NCBI RefSeq assembly: GCF_026684035.1
Contig: NZ_CP113361.1
Coordinates: forward strand, 682,001-746,000
Source of the DNA: Methanogenium organophilum
Lineage (GTDB): Archaea; Halobacteriota; Methanomicrobia; Methanomicrobiales; Methanomicrobiaceae
Reading direction: 5' to 3'
Length of the DNA: 64,000 nucleotides
Shown: in pieces, positions 3,415 through 10,019 of the stretch
How the letters are laid out: every line of letters starts with the position of its first letter
Numbering within the stretch: position 1 is the first letter of the stretch
The notes under the pieces: generated by a model
Databases searched by the model: none
The model's input: only the letters and a program-made list of their open reading frames with translations
What the model was told of the DNA's origin: nothing
Position numbers and translations under genes: made by a program

Positions 3415-4317
3415 TCAAAGGATTTTCTCCAGGAATGGTTTACAGTCGATAGCATGCAGATCAAGAGCAAGCTCCTGCGGAGTCATACCCTGTGCAAGAC
3501 CGAGGAGTTCATTGAAGTGAAGAACCGGAAGGTCGTATGTCTGACCAAACTTCTCCTGAATTTCAACCTGACCACGGTCATACTGAAGCTGACAGAACGG
3601 ACATACCTCAGTGAGTGCATCCGCACCTACTTCCTGCAGGTTAATGAGTTTCTCATTGGTAATATCCAGTGAGTGTGTCAGATCGTATCCACGGACACCG
3701 CCGCCGGCACCACAGCACTGCATCTTATTGCGGTACTGAACTGCCTCTGCACCAAGTGCCTCAACAAGCTCATCGATCCACATGGGGTTTTCGGTATCAC
3801 CGAAGTGGCGCTCTTTCTGGGGCTTCATCAGGTGGCATCCATAGTGAACTGCAATTTTGGTCCCGGTAAGGGGGCGTGTCACGGTTGATGCAAGCTTGTC
3901 AACACCACAGATCTTGTCGTCATAATAGAGTTCTGCAAGGTGCCAGACATCAATGGAACCCTTGAATTCCATGTCGGCTTCTGCAAGCACTTCGTTCACA
4001 CCGTCACGGAGTTCATCGTCGTGCTTAAGGATGTGGTTGACTTCCCAGATGGACTTGTAACATCCGTTACAGATGAGCGTGATGTCCATGTTCATCTGTT
4101 CTGCAAGCACGATGTTGCGTGCAGCGAGTGCGTACCAGACCTTCAGGTCAATGGCACCAAATGCACCAGGTGCAGGACAGCAGCCTGCACCGTTCAGCGG
4201 AAGAAGCTCGATACCGACCTTTGCACTGGTCTTGATAGCTGCGGCTTCACAGCCGGGGTACCGGTTGGGTGCGATGCAGCCGAGGAAGAACGCGTACTGA
4301 CGCATGTTTCCTGACAT
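3415..4317 (-). CDS. hdrB: CoB-CoM heterodisulfide reductase subunit B
   Basis: A 300-residue catalytic subunit that cleaves CoM-S-S-CoB at paired non-cubane [4Fe-4S] clusters. The first CCG-domain motif is Cys14, Cys46-Cys47, Cys83 and Cys86, which fits the family pattern CX31-39CCX35-36CXXC. The second is in the C-terminal half, with CCGAGGGVRG and CPFCQLQYDRG. The ATG follows directly on the hdrC stop (4318-4320). A second Met at residue 5 is an alternative start. Confidence 0.96.
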   Translation of the reverse strand: MSGNMRQYAFFLGCIAPNRYPGCEAAAIKTSAKVGIELLPLNGAGCCPAPGAFGAIDLKVWYALAARNIVLAEQMNMDITLICNGCYKSIWEVNHILKHDDELRDGVNEVLAEADMEFKGSIDVWHLAELYYDDKICGVDKLASTVTRPLTGTKIAVHYGCHLMKPQKERHFGDTENPMWIDELVEALGAEAVQYRNKMQCCGAGGGVRGYDLTHSLDITNEKLINLQEVGADALTEVCPFCQLQYDRGQVEIQEKFGQTYDLPVLHFNELLGLAQGMTPQELALDLHAIDCKPFLEKIL

Positions 4318-4902
4318 TTACTGACCCTCCTCTGCGAGAATCCGGTCTGCGTTCTCTTTCATCTTGTAGAAATCCATAATCTTCTGAATTCCAGGAATAT
4401 ACTCGGGGTAACTGTGTGTCGTTGCCGGGTCTCTCGTCAGCCCAAGTTTCTCGCGGGCTGCACGGTTGACGTCATTATTGGGCACACCGTGTCCGGTGTT
4501 GTAGATCAGCTGGACGGTTTTGAGGAAGTTGCGTGGCACAATATCATATTTGAACGCAAGGTTTCTCATTGCCATGATTACATCAGTCGGTGCAAGGTCA
4601 CGCGGACAGCGGTCTGTACAGGAATAACAGGTGGTACAGAGCCACAGGTCCGGGTCATTGAGTGCTTCCTGCTCGAGGCCCAGCACTCCTTTTCTCATAA
4701 AGAGACGAATCCGATATGAACTCCGGGGTGCAGACGGACATGAACCTGTGCATGTTCCACACTGGAAACACATATTGGCAGCCGTACGACTGATTTTCTT
4801 CACATCTTCGAGAAACTGAGGATTTGAATCATCAGTATAATAACTCGTATCTCTGAGTTTCTCTTCCAGTTCGGCATTGCCGTAATCTTTTACTCTTGCC
4901 AT
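4318..4902 (-). CDS. hdrC: CoB-CoM heterodisulfide reductase subunit C
   Basis: A 194-residue electron-transfer subunit with two [4Fe-4S] motifs, CFQCGTCTGSCPSAPRS and CTTCYSCTDRCPRDL, that relay electrons from HdrA to HdrB. Both motifs are complete and length is normal for the soluble, cytosolic HdrC; there is no membrane segment. The order fwdF-hdrC-hdrB-hdrA-mvhD shows it belongs to the bifurcating complex rather than the membrane HdrDE type. Confidence 0.96.
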   Translation of the reverse strand: MARVKDYGNAELEEKLRDTSYYTDDSNPQFLEDVKKISRTAANMCFQCGTCTGSCPSAPRSSYRIRLFMRKGVLGLEQEALNDPDLWLCTTCYSCTDRCPRDLAPTDVIMAMRNLAFKYDIVPRNFLKTVQLIYNTGHGVPNNDVNRAAREKLGLTRDPATTHSYPEYIPGIQKIMDFYKMKENADRILAEEGQ

Positions 4903-4912
4903 TTCCTTTTCC

Positions 4913-6076
4913 TCACGCGGTTTCCATCATCTTGAGTTCAACCTCGTCACGTGCATCCTCTTTTACTTTAGAGGTACGGGGAGTGCAGAGCTTGTCCTTG
5001 ATTTTAAGGAAGAGATCCGTCTCTTTGCCCTTCACACGGATGCCAGTACGCTTCAGAGTAATGATGTCCTCACCGGGGCATGCATTCACGCAGGCGCCAC
5101 AGAGAATACAGAGGTCCTTATTGACTGCAATCACAGGCTCGTTTTCGCCCTTCAGGTCCTTTGCTGCCTTCGGGGTCGGGAGATAGATTGCATTTGCGGG
5201 ACATACCTCAACACAGGTGGAACACCCGGCAGGGCACTTGTCTGCATTGAACTCGATGTCACCTTCAAAGATCTTCTCAACGGTGATTGCCTCGGCAGGA
5301 CAGTTGATGTCACACCAGCGGCAGGTACAGCAGTTCTCTTCGAGAATCTCGACCTTTCCACTGAGCTTGGCGGATTCTACCTCACGCTCAACTTTGATTG
5401 CATCTTCAGGGCATGCCTCGACACAGACCTGACAGGCGTCACAAAGCTTCTCGTCCCAGACAACATCGCCTACGACTGCGCCAGATTCTGCGGAGAAGGG
5501 TTTGCGCTTCACATCAATTGCAGGACAGAGTTCTGCACAGATGCCACAGCGGGTACACTTCTCATCGTCAACGGTGAAAGTGGTCTTTGCTGCGATTGCG
5601 GTCTGCTTTCCTGCTGCTCCCTCAACCGTTCCCTCAAACACAGGGACTTCACGGCTGATGGCATCGCGGGGACATACGTCCTCACAGATCGTACATTTAA
5701 CGCACTTGTCCTGGTCAATCTCTGTGACCATATCATATTCAGGGAACCCTTCGCGCTCAACAATCGGAAGGGCTTCCTCGCCGTCAATTTTGAGTGTCAG
5801 GGAATTGAACGGGCACATTACAACACAGACGCCACAGTATGAGCACTTTTTCTCATCAATGTTAATGGGCTCTGCGTAGTCAACTACACCACGACGAACA
5901 GCACCTACCAGTCCAAGACTGATTGCTTCCTCTGGGCAGGCTTCTGCACAGATTCCGCATCCGGTACACGTCTGTCCGTTTAGAATCAGGTTGTTAACGT
6001 TCTTGAGGAGCTTCTGCTCCATAATGACGTTAACGCCATCTCTCTTTTTGGAGAATTTCGGGAAGAATGTATCCAT
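4913..6076 (-). CDS. fwdF: Polyferredoxin of formylmethanofuran dehydrogenase (FwdF type), eight [4Fe-4S] motifs
   Basis: A 387-residue protein with eight four-cysteine cluster motifs in series: CTGCGICAEACP, CSYCGVCVVMCP, CVKCTICEDVCP, CTRCGICAELCP, CDACQVCVEACP, CCTCRWCDINCP, CPAGCSTCVEVCP and CILCGACVNACP. The seventh has an extra residue in its first spacer. Known FwdF forms the electron wire between Fwd units and, in M. hungatei, between Hdr and Fwd. The position directly upstream of hdrC supports the same role, feeding low-potential electrons from HdrA into CO2 reduction. An MvhB-type polyferredoxin is the alternative, but eight motifs in a fwd operon favours FwdF. Confidence 0.9.
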   Translation of the reverse strand: MDTFFPKFSKKRDGVNVIMEQKLLKNVNNLILNGQTCTGCGICAEACPEEAISLGLVGAVRRGVVDYAEPINIDEKKCSYCGVCVVMCPFNSLTLKIDGEEALPIVEREGFPEYDMVTEIDQDKCVKCTICEDVCPRDAISREVPVFEGTVEGAAGKQTAIAAKTTFTVDDEKCTRCGICAELCPAIDVKRKPFSAESGAVVGDVVWDEKLCDACQVCVEACPEDAIKVEREVESAKLSGKVEILEENCCTCRWCDINCPAEAITVEKIFEGDIEFNADKCPAGCSTCVEVCPANAIYLPTPKAAKDLKGENEPVIAVNKDLCILCGACVNACPGEDIITLKRTGIRVKGKETDLFLKIKDKLCTPRTSKVKEDARDEVELKMMETA

Positions 6077-6085
6077 GTTAAAACC

Positions 6086-6361
6086 TCACTCCATACCTTC
6101 TGCCAGGGATTTGGATTTCGAATCCCACGGTCCTGCCAGCCGTATCACATTAAATGGGCACGCCTCAACACATACGCCACACCCGGCGCAGAGTTCATGA
6201 TCTACATCGAGAACAATGGCTTTGCCATCCTTCACTTTGTAGATCTTATCATCGGTCACCGGATCAACTGTAAACAGCTCCAGCGCATCGACGGGACATG
6301 CCACAACACATGCGTTACAACCGGTACACCGCTCCATGTTAATATGCAATGCAAATGCCAT
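6086..6361 (-). CDS. fwdG: Two-cluster ferredoxin, FwdG-like, first gene of the fwd-hdr operon
   Basis: A 91-residue 2[4Fe-4S] ferredoxin with motifs CTGCNACVVACP and CAGCGVCVEACP separated by an insertion of about 30 residues, as in FwdG-type proteins. The ATG at 6361 was chosen because a GGTG ribosome binding site lies nine bases upstream; an in-frame GTG at 6373 is the alternative. It probably docks on FwdA-D and takes electrons from the polyferredoxin. The assignment to FwdG rests on context as well as motifs; a generic ferredoxin is possible. Confidence 0.8.
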   Translation of the reverse strand: MAFALHINMERCTGCNACVVACPVDALELFTVDPVTDDKIYKVKDGKAIVLDVDHELCAGCGVCVEACPFNVIRLAGPWDSKSKSLAEGME

Positions 6362-6772
6362 GGTTTCACGCACCAGTATCGATTAAATCGATTACAGGAA
6401 AAGTTGTTGAAAAGAATAGATAAAGGTATTGAAGTAGTGTCCATTGTGAAAAACGGCGTACCTCCCTTCTTTCTTGATAGTACTAATTTACAATGCCAAA
6501 ATATTAATTCTGTATGGTTAATTTCAACGAGCGCAATCCACCAATAATAATCAAAAATTGTCAAAAAAGAAATCCCCGAATTCATTAATTTATTTTCAAA
6601 TTTCTGTATTGCTAAACCAACAATAATTATGGAAAAACATGTGTTTTCTGACAATTAGTCACAGAAACCGGATTCATGGGGGAAAATCCCGATCTCAGCA
6701 ATTTCTAATATCCGCTCACTGACATCCCCGTACAGTAAACCTAATTTCAATCAAAAACCACCATAATTATAC
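6362..6772. promoter_or_regulatory. AT-rich divergent control region between the fwd-hdr operon and the HTH-moeA operon
   Basis: About 410 bases with no convincing gene, clearly richer in A+T than the flanks. It must hold the promoters of both divergent operons. On the minus strand a TATA-like CTTTATCTA lies near 6415-6424, which would start transcription around 6393. No clear ribosome binding site or TATA box could be fixed for the plus-strand gene; an ATAATTATAC lies directly before its ATG. The minus-strand reading frame at 6256-6654 overlaps the ferredoxin gene and is probably not a gene. Confidence 0.5.
6378..6392. promoter_or_regulatory. Paired ATCGAT inverted repeat, candidate operator
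   Basis: Two ATCGAT hexamers separated by TAA, 17 bases upstream of the ferredoxin ATG. They would lie at or just after the predicted transcription start of the fwd-hdr operon. The symmetry suits binding by a dimeric repressor, but no binding protein is known; function is inferred. Confidence 0.3.
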
Positions 6773-6955
6773 ATGACAGCAGACGACCTTGCAGAGATAT
6801 TCAAAGAATATGGAATCGAAAATGAGATCACCTGCCCACAGGCATTTGAAATATCAGAAAAATATGGTATCTCAAAGACGGCCATTGCACGCTACTGCAA
6901 CAGCCGGGACCCCCGCGTTAAGATCAGGGGATGCCAGCTGGGCTGTTTCAAATGA
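6773..6955 (+). CDS. Small HTH-like protein with C-terminal CX3C motif, coupled to moeA
   Basis: A 60-residue protein. Residues 21-45 look like a helix-turn-helix (CPQAFEISEKYGISKTAIA), and the end is RVKIRGCQLGCFK with two cysteines three residues apart. I do not recognise a named family, though the ending looks conserved among methanogens from memory. Its TGA overlaps the moeA ATG (ATGA), so it is cotranslated with a molybdopterin gene, and it is divergent from the tungsto/molybdo-enzyme operon. It could be a metal- or redox-sensing regulator of these two operons, or a small accessory factor. The sequence cannot decide. Confidence 0.75.
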   Translation: MTADDLAEIFKEYGIENEITCPQAFEISEKYGISKTAIARYCNSRDPRVKIRGCQLGCFK

Positions 6956-8154
6956 GCATATTTCTGGACCTGATTCCCGTCTCTCGCGCCGAAGAGATCC
7001 TGCAGGATATTGCACCACCCATGGAGGAGGAATGGGTCTCCCTGCTTGATGCATACAGGTGTGTCCTCTCCCAACCAATTACCGCACAGGAAGACATACC
7101 CGGGTTCACCCGTACGGTTGTGGACGGATACGCCGTTAGTGCGTCGGATACTATTGGTGCCGGAGAGGCATTACCTGCCATGCTCACCATTACCGGACGG
7201 GTAGGAATGGGAGATGGGGATGCCGGAATTGTCAGGCCAGGTGAATGCCGGTATGTCCCGACAGGCGCAGTCATTCCCGATGGTGCCAATGCCGTCGCCA
7301 TGATCGAATATGCAGAAGAGTCAGGCGATGAGGTCCTTGTCTATCGGGCAGTCGCAGAGGGAGAGAACCTCACTCTTCAGGGAGACGATTTCCGGAAAGG
7401 TGAAATGGTGTTTCCCGCAGGAAGACGCCTGTCATCACGCGATCTCGGTGTCCTGGGGGCACTTGGCGTAACCATGGTGCCTGTGCGCAGGAAACCTGTG
7501 CTCGGAATCATCAGCACAGGGAATGAACTCATCAGTCCGGATAAGACTCCCGGACCGGGTGAAATCAGAGACGTCAACACCTACCTCTGTCGCGGATATG
7601 CAGAAGAACGGGGCACTGTCCCACGCATGTATGGCATCGTTCCCGACGAACGGGGCCCTCTCGAGGAGGCCATCCGCCAGGCAGTAGCAGAGTGCGATCT
7701 GGTCTGTATCTCCGGCGGCAGCTCAAAAGGAGAACGGGATATGTGTGCCGCCATTCTTGCAGACCTCGGTACGGTTCATGCACATGGCATTGCGCTTGCA
7801 CCCGGCAAACCGACGATCATCGGCACGATCAGTGATGTACCCGTGCTGGGCCTTCCCGGCCACCCGGCATCTGCCTATGTAGTCCTTGTGGCACTGGGTG
7901 ATGTACTGATCGCCGCCATGACAGGAAGCGCGGCTGCACGGATAACCGTACCGGCCCGCTGCGCCGCACCGATCCCATCCGCACGTGGACGGGAGGACTA
8001 CATACGCGTTCGGCTTGAGGGACATGACGCATACCCGCTCTTTGGAAAATCCGGCCTTACAAATACCCTTATTGAAAGCCATGGACTGCTCCGCGTCCCT
8101 GATGGCAGGGAAGGGTATGAAAAGGGTGCAGAGGTCGAGGTGATCCTGTGGTAA
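6952..8154 (+). CDS. moeA: Molybdopterin molybdenumtransferase MoeA
   Basis: A 400-residue MoeA that inserts molybdate or tungstate into the adenylylated pterin. The N-terminal domain holds DIPGFTRTVVDGYAV and the central domain has the MPT-binding signature ISGGSSKGERDM near residue 260. The C-terminal beta-barrel (domain IV) is present. The ATG at 6952 overlaps the stop of the small HTH gene; an upstream Met at 6931 inside that gene is not used. A second MoeA-like gene follows directly, which is usual in methanogens needing Mo/W enzymes such as Fwd and formate dehydrogenase. Confidence 0.95.
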   Translation: MSIFLDLIPVSRAEEILQDIAPPMEEEWVSLLDAYRCVLSQPITAQEDIPGFTRTVVDGYAVSASDTIGAGEALPAMLTITGRVGMGDGDAGIVRPGECRYVPTGAVIPDGANAVAMIEYAEESGDEVLVYRAVAEGENLTLQGDDFRKGEMVFPAGRRLSSRDLGVLGALGVTMVPVRRKPVLGIISTGNELISPDKTPGPGEIRDVNTYLCRGYAEERGTVPRMYGIVPDERGPLEEAIRQAVAECDLVCISGGSSKGERDMCAAILADLGTVHAHGIALAPGKPTIIGTISDVPVLGLPGHPASAYVVLVALGDVLIAAMTGSAAARITVPARCAAPIPSARGREDYIRVRLEGHDAYPLFGKSGLTNTLIESHGLLRVPDGREGYEKGAEVEVILW

Positions 8155-10019
8155 CGAGAGTAAAACGATATCTCGAACTGGTCTCTCTGAATGAGGCCCT
8201 TGAAAAGACACTCACATCATTCCCGTACATCCCCGGAGTAGAGGATGTTCCCCTCTCCGCAGCTGCGGGCAGAGTAACCGCAACCCCGGTATTCACACGA
8301 CAGTCTGTCCCACCAGTGCATCTCTCGGCGATGGACGGGATAGCAGTGAAAAGCCGGGATACAACCGGGGCCAGTGAACAGCGCCCGGTGACCCTGCAGG
8401 ATTCCCTGCGAGTCAATACCGGCAATGTGGTCTCCTCAGAGTATGATGCAGTCATCATGATTGAGGATGTTGAGGAAACAGATAACGGCCACTACACTAT
8501 CCGCAAGGCCGCCGCTCCCTGGCAGCACATCCGGCCGGTGGGAGAAGACATCGGCGAATCCGAGATGATTGTCCCTTCATCCCACCGCATCCGTCCCCAC
8601 GAGATCGGTGCCCTCGCTGCCTACGGAGTGACGACTGTCCCTGTGCGGAGTGTGCGGGCAGGACTCATTGCAACCGGTAGTGAACTGGTACCCGTTGGTA
8701 CGAGACCCGAAGCAGGCCAGGTCATTGAGAGCAATATGCAGATGGCATCCGCATGTCTCCGGGATTTCGGGGCCACACCCACCTATTATGGCATTGTACC
8801 GGATGAACCGGACAAAATCCGTAAAGCCGTCATCCGGGCGACAGAGGAGAATGATATGGTCATCATCTCCGCAGGCTCCTCCAAGGGGACCCGTGATTTT
8901 ACGGCATCCATTATCGAAGAACTGGGAGAGGTGTTCATCCACGGGGTTGCCATCAAACCGGCACGTCCGGTAATAATCGGTACCATCGACGGCAAACCTG
9001 TCATCGGCACCCCCGGATACCCACTTGCCGCATATACCATCATCCGCGAAATCATCGGTCCGATGATGCACGCATACGGCCTGCAGCCGGCGGTGCCAGA
9101 GACCATTCCCGTCGTCCTCTCCACACGGCTGGACTCGGCAGGAGGCACGGACGAATTTGTTTTGCTCTCGGCAGGCAGGGTCAGCAACCGGTGGGTGGCT
9201 GTCCCCCAGTCCCGCGGTGCAGGCGTGCAGATGAGTGCGGTTCGTGCAAATGCCTATATGAAGATTCCCGCACGTAAAGAGGGTGTTATGGCGGGCGAGG
9301 AAGTGCAGGCGACCCTGATGGCCCCGCGGTCCGTTGTAGCGGAATCACTTCTCATCACCGGCAGCCATGACCCATGTATCGATTATCTCGGCGACATGCT
9401 CCGGAAACATGCAGTCACTATCCACCCCACCCACACCGGCAGCATGGGAGGCGTCCTCTCTCTGAAAAAGGACACCTGTCATGCAGCACCGATGCACCTT
9501 CTCGCTGAGGATGGCACCTACAATACTCACTACCTGGAGAAGTACCTGCCTGACATCCCACTCACCATCATCTGTGGGGCAGAACGCGAACAGGGCATCA
9601 TCGCACCCGAGCCGGTCACCTTTGACGACCTTCCCGATAAACGGATCATCAACCGACAGAAGGGCTCCGGGACACGAATCCTCTTTGACCATCTCCTGAA
9701 AGAGAAGGGCATAGACCCCGCGGGCATTACCGGATATGAGCGGGAAGCAACTACCCATCTTGCCGTAGCCCTTGCCGTCCGGTCCGGCGAGGTGGAAGCA
9801 GGCATCGGAGTTTACAGTGCGGCAAAGGCACTTGGTCTTTCATTCACCCCTATCGGAACAGAACGCTACGAACTGGTGACACGGACATCGACCTATGAAG
9901 ACATGCCGGAAGTCAGAAAACTCTTCGATACCGTAGCTTCAGATGCGTTCAAAGAGATACTCCACCGTCTTGGCGGATACCGTACAGAAGAAACAGGGAT
10001 AATCAGAAGAATACCCTGA
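8148..10019 (+). CDS. MoeA fused to a periplasmic-binding-protein-like (LysR substrate) domain
   Basis: A 623-residue two-part protein. Residues 1-400 are MoeA-like, with VHLSAMDGIAV near residue 53 and the pterin-site motif ISAGSSKGTRDF near residue 245. Residues 400-623 are a PBP-like domain of the type found in molybdate and LysR-type binding proteins (start LLITGSHDPCIDYLGDML, later KGSGTRILFDHLLKEKGI). The GTG start at 8148 overlaps the end of moeA and has a strong ribosome binding site (GAGGTGATC) just upstream. The fusion suggests sensing or delivering the oxyanion to the insertion enzyme. Which of the two MoeA proteins handles W and which Mo is unknown. Confidence 0.9.
   Translation: MVTRVKRYLELVSLNEALEKTLTSFPYIPGVEDVPLSAAAGRVTATPVFTRQSVPPVHLSAMDGIAVKSRDTTGASEQRPVTLQDSLRVNTGNVVSSEYDAVIMIEDVEETDNGHYTIRKAAAPWQHIRPVGEDIGESEMIVPSSHRIRPHEIGALAAYGVTTVPVRSVRAGLIATGSELVPVGTRPEAGQVIESNMQMASACLRDFGATPTYYGIVPDEPDKIRKAVIRATEENDMVIISAGSSKGTRDFTASIIEELGEVFIHGVAIKPARPVIIGTIDGKPVIGTPGYPLAAYTIIREIIGPMMHAYGLQPAVPETIPVVLSTRLDSAGGTDEFVLLSAGRVSNRWVAVPQSRGAGVQMSAVRANAYMKIPARKEGVMAGEEVQATLMAPRSVVAESLLITGSHDPCIDYLGDMLRKHAVTIHPTHTGSMGGVLSLKKDTCHAAPMHLLAEDGTYNTHYLEKYLPDIPLTIICGAEREQGIIAPEPVTFDDLPDKRIINRQKGSGTRILFDHLLKEKGIDPAGITGYEREATTHLAVALAVRSGEVEAGIGVYSAAKALGLSFTPIGTERYELVTRTSTYEDMPEVRKLFDTVASDAFKEILHRLGGYRTEETGIIRRIP

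Follow-up and report, generated by a model that had tools for sequence, protein, structure and literature searches.

Accounts of molybdenum and tungsten (Mo/W) cofactor assembly usually treat its set of enzymes as complete. The genes involved are controlled by ModE and other helix-turn-helix (HTH) regulators or, in the Moco/Tuco riboswitch regulon (RF01055), by an RNA; the parts of PMC2408646 that deal with this RNA report that retention of its P3 stem correlates with Moco and its absence with Tuco. In Desulfovibrio, the tungsten cofactor needs both moeA genes, and moeA and moeA-2 are cofit at r = 0.85, as given in excerpts of PMC10102598. An archaeal-type MoeA pair that includes a PBP fusion is described in PMC11733289 (Commun Biol 2025), where the sections on the pair describe a kinship of Methanomicrobiales and small bacterial clades, propose transfer from archaea to bacteria and make no mention of a small gene upstream. 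The same moeA-moeA(PBP) pair, with the same cross-domain kinship, follows a small gene in Methanogenium organophilum. The window analyzed here is a stretch of 64,000 nucleotides of this genome (contig NZ_CP113361.1, positions 682,001 to 746,000, forward strand), and all coordinates below are positions in the window unless a locus is named.

The small gene (6773..6955, plus strand) encodes a protein of 60 amino acids that begins with MTADDL and ends with IRGCQLGCFK, which we call SM; the genome (2.65 Mb, one contig) holds one copy. Its TGA (6953-6955) overlaps the ATG (6952-6954) of a short-form moeA (6952..8154, plus strand; Pfam domains MoeA_N, MoCF_biosynth and MoeA_C) as ATGA, and a second moeA with a C-terminal PBP_like domain (PF12727) follows at 8148..10019 on the plus strand. 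On the other side, a gap of 399 bp (6374..6772) separates SM from a divergent minus-strand operon for which Pfam identified ferredoxins, HdrC/B/A-like proteins, FlpD and a molybdopterin-dinucleotide-binding protein, the Hdr names being our interpretation of the Pfam domains. The gap is 67.2% A+T, compared with 45.9% for the whole window. An earlier note on this DNA had described the 60-residue frame with its GCQLGCFK end, the start-stop overlap and an AT-rich region of about 400 bases common to both operons, and these descriptions held. The frame is not a chance one, since a single-sequence search matched it in 56 of 60 relatives (E ≤ 1; weakest best match 1.8e-8).

SM represents a large, previously unnamed family without a Pfam or NCBIfam model. 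Scans against both collections returned no model covering SM, a profile search against solved structures gave a best E of 0.46 (a chain named CAP REPEAT) and no known family, and searches for the GCQLGCF string and for the gene context found no description of SM in the searchable portions of openly licensed PMC papers. Profile A1 detected SM in 43 of the 246 Halobacteriota genomes searched, every one a member of the Methanomicrobiales (two more Methanomicrobiales genomes in the same listing were without it), and in 94 of 249 genomes of the Bacillota phylum, the phylum of a Dethiobacter locus. Profile A2 detected it in 93 of 198 genomes of the Desulfofervidaceae phylum, and many of the matches listed there were tandem SM-SM proteins. 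Named carriers include Methanogenium, Methanoculleus, Methanospirillum, Methanocalculus and Acetobacterium bakii, and MAGs labelled Spirochaetes, Planctomycetota and Lentisphaerae also carry SM.

In the Methanomicrobiales, moeA lies downstream of SM in 53 of 59 loci and the ATGA overlap is present in 51 of them. Of the six loci without moeA, three (L048, L079, L080) end within about 900 bases and three of Methanoregula type (L075, L077, L081) keep SM with moeA absent from the available sequence nearby; the latter are one place to look for what SM needs. Among the best 27 Bacillota loci, the next gene is moeA (23) or moaA (2) in 25 and another gene in two. For at least 70 of the 97 Bacillota SM places, a MoeA_N match follows on the same strand at no more than 1500 bp, most often at a distance of 15-135 bp; this lower bound covers the matches listed, with the second tandem place in G430 excluded from the 97. 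MoeA is encoded in 93 of 94 SM-bearing Bacillota genomes versus 81 of 155 without SM, and in 18 of 20 further SM-bearing genomes, most of other phyla (absent from G286 and G514). Linkage to Moco genes therefore spans distant taxa in the Methanomicrobiales and Bacillota; it was not seen at most of the Desulfofervidaceae-phylum loci looked at. Because SM heads Mo/W-cofactor operons in methanogens and in many bacteria, it is probably an overlooked part of Mo/W-cofactor making and not a switch for a neighboring cluster. More specifically, we put at roughly 45% the probability that SM is a small thiol/metal-binding accessory protein of Mo/W-cofactor assembly, a role suggested in part by the moeA linkage and the co-occurrence with MoeA.

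The earlier note had instead proposed a mini-regulator that adjusts both moeA and the divergent Fwd-Hdr operon. The 399-bp gap is common to both operons and the same divergent cluster is found in the Methanogenium loci L031-L034. However, Fwd/Hdr clusters lie near SM in only five of 78 loci, these four and L083, where a cluster match was counted regardless of divergent orientation. Of the neighbors that the note had proposed to look for, moeA adjoins SM at most Methanomicrobiales loci and Fwd/Hdr clusters at few. In other Methanomicrobiales, a tRNA deacylase and FtsZ are common minus-strand neighbors, present at 39 and 44 of the 59 loci, respectively. Because the Fwd-Hdr neighbor is confined to Methanogenium, apart from the one match at L083, we rejected control of both operons as a family property, and for the window protein itself we consider it very improbable.

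Some bacterial SM genes stand behind a known regulatory RNA. In 17 of 40 bacterial loci, SM is the first ORF after a Moco/Tuco riboswitch that immediately precedes it on the same strand. This set of 40 was assembled without L149, L152, L175-L180, L183, L189, L193, L194 and most Desulfofervidaceae-phylum loci, and its first 20 members included ones already seen to have riboswitch-like sequence. In 20 further loci (14 with SM, six SM-negative), the sole RF01055 match was at an SM-negative moeA locus (L240). By our reading of 12 alignments, the P3 stem is kept in eight (L168, L185, L151, L155, L156, L165, L184, L172) and missing from four (L157, L188, L166, L161). Unlike members of this regulon, the window gap has no riboswitch; an Rfam scan of 6300-7000 found no riboswitch or other RNA near the gathering score. 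Together with the moeA and moaA neighbors, the riboswitch bears out the link to Mo/W metabolism that the earlier note had drawn.

Methanomicrobiales SM genes are preceded by a different feature, an element (consensus RGTAAAYNCTAT) that lies roughly 40 bp ahead of the SM ATG. Scores of at least 9 of 11 were obtained in 44 of 56 Methanomicrobiales loci versus 1 of 650 control ORF upstream regions, and scores of at least 10 in 37 of 56 versus 0 of 650, with a consensus derived from the scored loci themselves, many of which are close relatives. The window copy, CAGTAAACCTAATTTCAATC (6733..6752, plus strand), is the sole site in the genome at up to three mismatches, and AGTAAATCCTATCT (up to one mismatch) occurs exactly once in each of nine Methanoculleus genomes, always before SM. 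With one site per genome, placed before SM, the element appears to serve the SM operon alone, which also speaks against control of the divergent operon. The element could act as an operator or represent a core promoter of an unusual kind.

These observations raise the possibility that SM is a local autoregulator whose helical part binds this element before its own ATG and whose thiols would respond to a metal, the cofactor, the redox state or an Fe-S cluster. The single-copy element suits such a regulator no less than it suits an accessory protein, and to that extent it counts against the accessory reading; the position of SM as the first gene of several different operons would also suit a regulator. 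However, the riboswitch already controls the operon in those 17 bacterial loci, and the archaeal element was not found before bacterial SM genes (observed mean 7.9 versus 7.8 for shuffled sequence). The element lies at core-promoter distance, its consensus came from the same sequences in which it was scored, and dyad symmetry was not found in 67 SM upstream regions (mean z 0.13 versus 0.20 in 150 controls). We consider autoregulation possible but on the doubtful side. An operator-like inverted repeat had been seen by eye at some Methanoregula-type loci, best at L056; this candidate failed over 67 upstream regions.

The autoregulator reading also draws on the predicted fold and on weak HTH and homeodomain matches. 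AlphaFold models of an archaeal and a bacterial query agree (pLDDT 83.1 and 83.7) on the order helix, short strand, helix, helix, short strand and loose tail. For window SM, the helices span residues 3-13, 21-31 and 35-44, the strands 18-20 and 50-52 and the cysteine tail 53-60. The earlier note had called the protein HTH-like, and the three-helix order is HTH-like in both models, but window SM falls below every Pfam HTH cut-off (HTH_3 15.3 bits versus 23; HTH_11 13.0 versus 25). When 87 members were scanned singly against Pfam, HTH matches were few and weak, the best HTH type being GntR (E 5.6e-4, six members). Foldseek returned no match at E ≤ 0.001 for either model, and VIA-align gave best Z scores of 4.6 for the first model and 5.9 for the second, below the level that the tool calls meaningful, with NuoE-type, AlaRS, ribosomal-protein and homeodomain rows tied. 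Homeodomains (Z about 5) are among these weak matches. The putative recognition helix is poorly conserved (2.02 bits per column versus 3.97 for the tail in alignment A2, the tail value being inflated by a motif filter), and it carries a net charge that averages -0.61 in 54 bacterial members and +1.06 in 33 archaeal ones; the poor conservation and the negative charge in bacteria argue against DNA binding.

Like ModE and the other HTH regulators named above, SM stands in a Mo/W gene context and is predicted to have HTH-like helices. Unlike ModE, it is only 60 amino acids long, ends in a cysteine tail and has no HTH_1 match; neither the ModE-type HTH (HTH_1) nor a molybdate-binding domain was among the Pfam matches of window SM up to E 10, and a protein of this size would be too small for both ModE domains. 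ModE-type genes, a label that is our interpretation of HTH_1 matches and sequence, adjoin SM in L092, L096 and L097. L092 also encodes a MobA-FdhD fusion (3458-4819) and a protein that joins a P-loop domain to a ModE-type HTH (5120-5917), both next to SM, and L100 carries selB and fdhA-like genes.

Another tie to cofactor enzymes comes from three loci (L176-L178) where SM follows a MobB-like P-loop domain in one fused protein (PF03205 E 6e-6, 1e-4 and 0.012, all just under or under the cut-off); window SM is without a P-loop. We had also considered an arrest or leader peptide, since the C-terminus is conserved and its coding sequence is coupled to the gene that follows. This candidate was set aside because SM has the look of a folded domain in its tandem and MobB-fused forms.

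Conservation in the family centers on the cysteines. The Cys21 codon (6833..6835, plus strand) encodes the first residue of helix 2, directly after strand 1, and codons 54-58 (6932..6946, plus strand) encode CQLGC, which begins after strand 2. Early estimates of C54-C58 conservation were biased, with GCQLGCFK among the search patterns and alignment A2 motif-filtered; the counts that follow come from HMM searches without a motif filter. In four rank-chosen sets, C21 was present in 30/30, 27/27, 28/28 and 28/28 domains, C54 in 29/30, 27/27, 28/28 and 28/28, and C58 in 29/30, 27/27, 27/28 and 28/28. The first-set exception for C54 and C58 is L007, whose frame runs off after residue 53, and the third-set exception for C58 is the inner copy of one tandem protein. 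C21 and C54 were likewise always present at 40 loci picked as odd or for context (20 with 21 domains and 20 with 33), where C58 was retained in 16/21 and 9/33 domains, two rows ending before it. Proteins with tandem domains or a MobB fusion have L, I, A, S or T in place of C58, so that C21 and C54 form the core and C58 is a mark of stand-alone forms. The earlier note was right about the importance of the cysteines and about the C54/C58 tail, but it counted two conserved cysteines and overlooked the third, C21. With C21 and C54 conserved at about 100% and C58 in stand-alone forms, metal or Fe-S binding by SM is plausible.

The thiols might also serve a more general function. SM could be a thiol/Fe-S module of anaerobes, acting as a cluster donor, redox switch or docking domain and recruited to several Fe-S-dependent systems, Mo/W-cofactor operons among them. 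Its contexts fit this reading: at many Desulfofervidaceae-phylum loci SM immediately precedes a radical-SAM gene and a BcrAD activase gene, or else a NUBPL gene (an iron-transfer NTPase), AhpC/TSA also occurs in SM context, and moaA is itself a radical-SAM gene. Tandem forms carry 2+2 cysteines, and no Moco neighbor was recognized next to those of the Desulfofervidaceae phylum. The top structural match, a weak one, was to NuoE-type N-terminal helical domains (Z 5.9, rmsd 2.7, 53 residues aligned; Z 4.5 for 7p5h_C with the first model), which are found also in formate dehydrogenase and tungsten oxidoreductase complexes. However, this score is below the level called meaningful, SM has no counterpart of the thioredoxin-like cluster domain that NuoE carries, and the association is almost purely with Moco genes in the Bacillota and Methanomicrobiales. 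We regard a general module as unlikely, although these contexts, together with a peptidase as the next gene at Spirochaetes loci, show that the family extends beyond Moco loci and to that extent count against an accessory role in Mo/W-cofactor assembly.

A radical-SAM gene lies directly downstream of SM at L090, L102, L246, L250-L259, L261, L289 and L290, often with a BcrAD/BadFG activase with DUF2229 next in the operon. At L266 and L270, the gene directly downstream encodes a P-loop protein with a cysteine-rich N-terminus, identified by Pfam at L266 as the NUBPL NTPase, and a gene that by eye is metallo-beta-lactamase-like lies upstream.

The history of the downstream genes returns the argument to Mo/W-cofactor assembly. 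In both Methanomicrobiales and Bacillota, SM heads a moeA-moeA(PBP) cassette common to two domains of life. In a MoeA tree of 116 rows made with a quick method, the short MoeA of Methanomicrobiales clusters with Bacillota short MoeA (47-row clade, SH-aLRT 100), and the PBP-fused MoeA likewise clusters with bacteria (35-row clade, SH-aLRT 100). Other Halobacteriota fall outside both clades, and SM-negative Bacillota are intermixed with SM-positive ones. The direction of transfer of both moeA genes is left undecided by this tree; transfer from bacteria to Methanomicrobiales is worth testing, since SM is frequent in two bacterial phyla and restricted to one order in Halobacteriota.

An accessory role thus draws on riboswitch control, the MobB-like fusion, a cross-domain history shared with both moeA genes and conservation centered on the tail, in addition to the linkage already described, and we suggest how it might work. 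SM would be made as the first member of the SM-moeA-moeA(PBP) cassette. If the two short strands pair, as the predicted secondary structure would allow, C21 and C54 should be neighbors, and C58 on the C-terminal tail could close a three-thiolate site. A metal, an Fe-S cluster or a thio-oxyanion might occupy such a site, which might serve MoeA/MobB in metal insertion or cofactor hand-over while the helical part docks on the partner. SM is not essential for metal insertion as such, because many genomes run MoeA without it: many Bacillota and nearly all other Halobacteriota do so, and MoeA was present in 58 of 60 Halobacteriota genomes searched for it. The loci L075, L077 and L081, with SM and no moeA nearby, also weigh against an accessory role. 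In a bolder form, which we offer tentatively, SM would be a missing, horizontally mobile carrier with three thiolates, acting alongside the MoeA pair (and alongside MobB where fused) in metal insertion or hand-over and co-transferred with these partners between bacteria and Methanomicrobiales, the two-cysteine tandem forms serving other metallo-cofactor systems.

A protein that heads these operons, stands behind the Moco riboswitch, is fused to MobB-like domains, has a moeA-like history and matches no model suggests an extra component of cofactor assembly in anaerobes. Such a component would be relevant to the retention of two moeA genes in so many genomes and to the delivery of tungsten or molybdenum in a sulfide-rich cell.

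Some family members depart from the window form. Tandem SM-SM proteins of the Desulfofervidaceae phylum (L272-L284) have open frames of about 145-190 amino acids in which copy 1 mostly ends in CQLGLF and copy 2 in CQLG(A/S/T)F, each copy keeping two of the three cysteines; L274 keeps all. In Methanogenium cariaci (L007 and L034), the SM frame shifts after residue 53 and the GCQLGCF tail is lost, and at L034 moeA is likewise in pieces, which reflects either an assembly error or a decaying operon.
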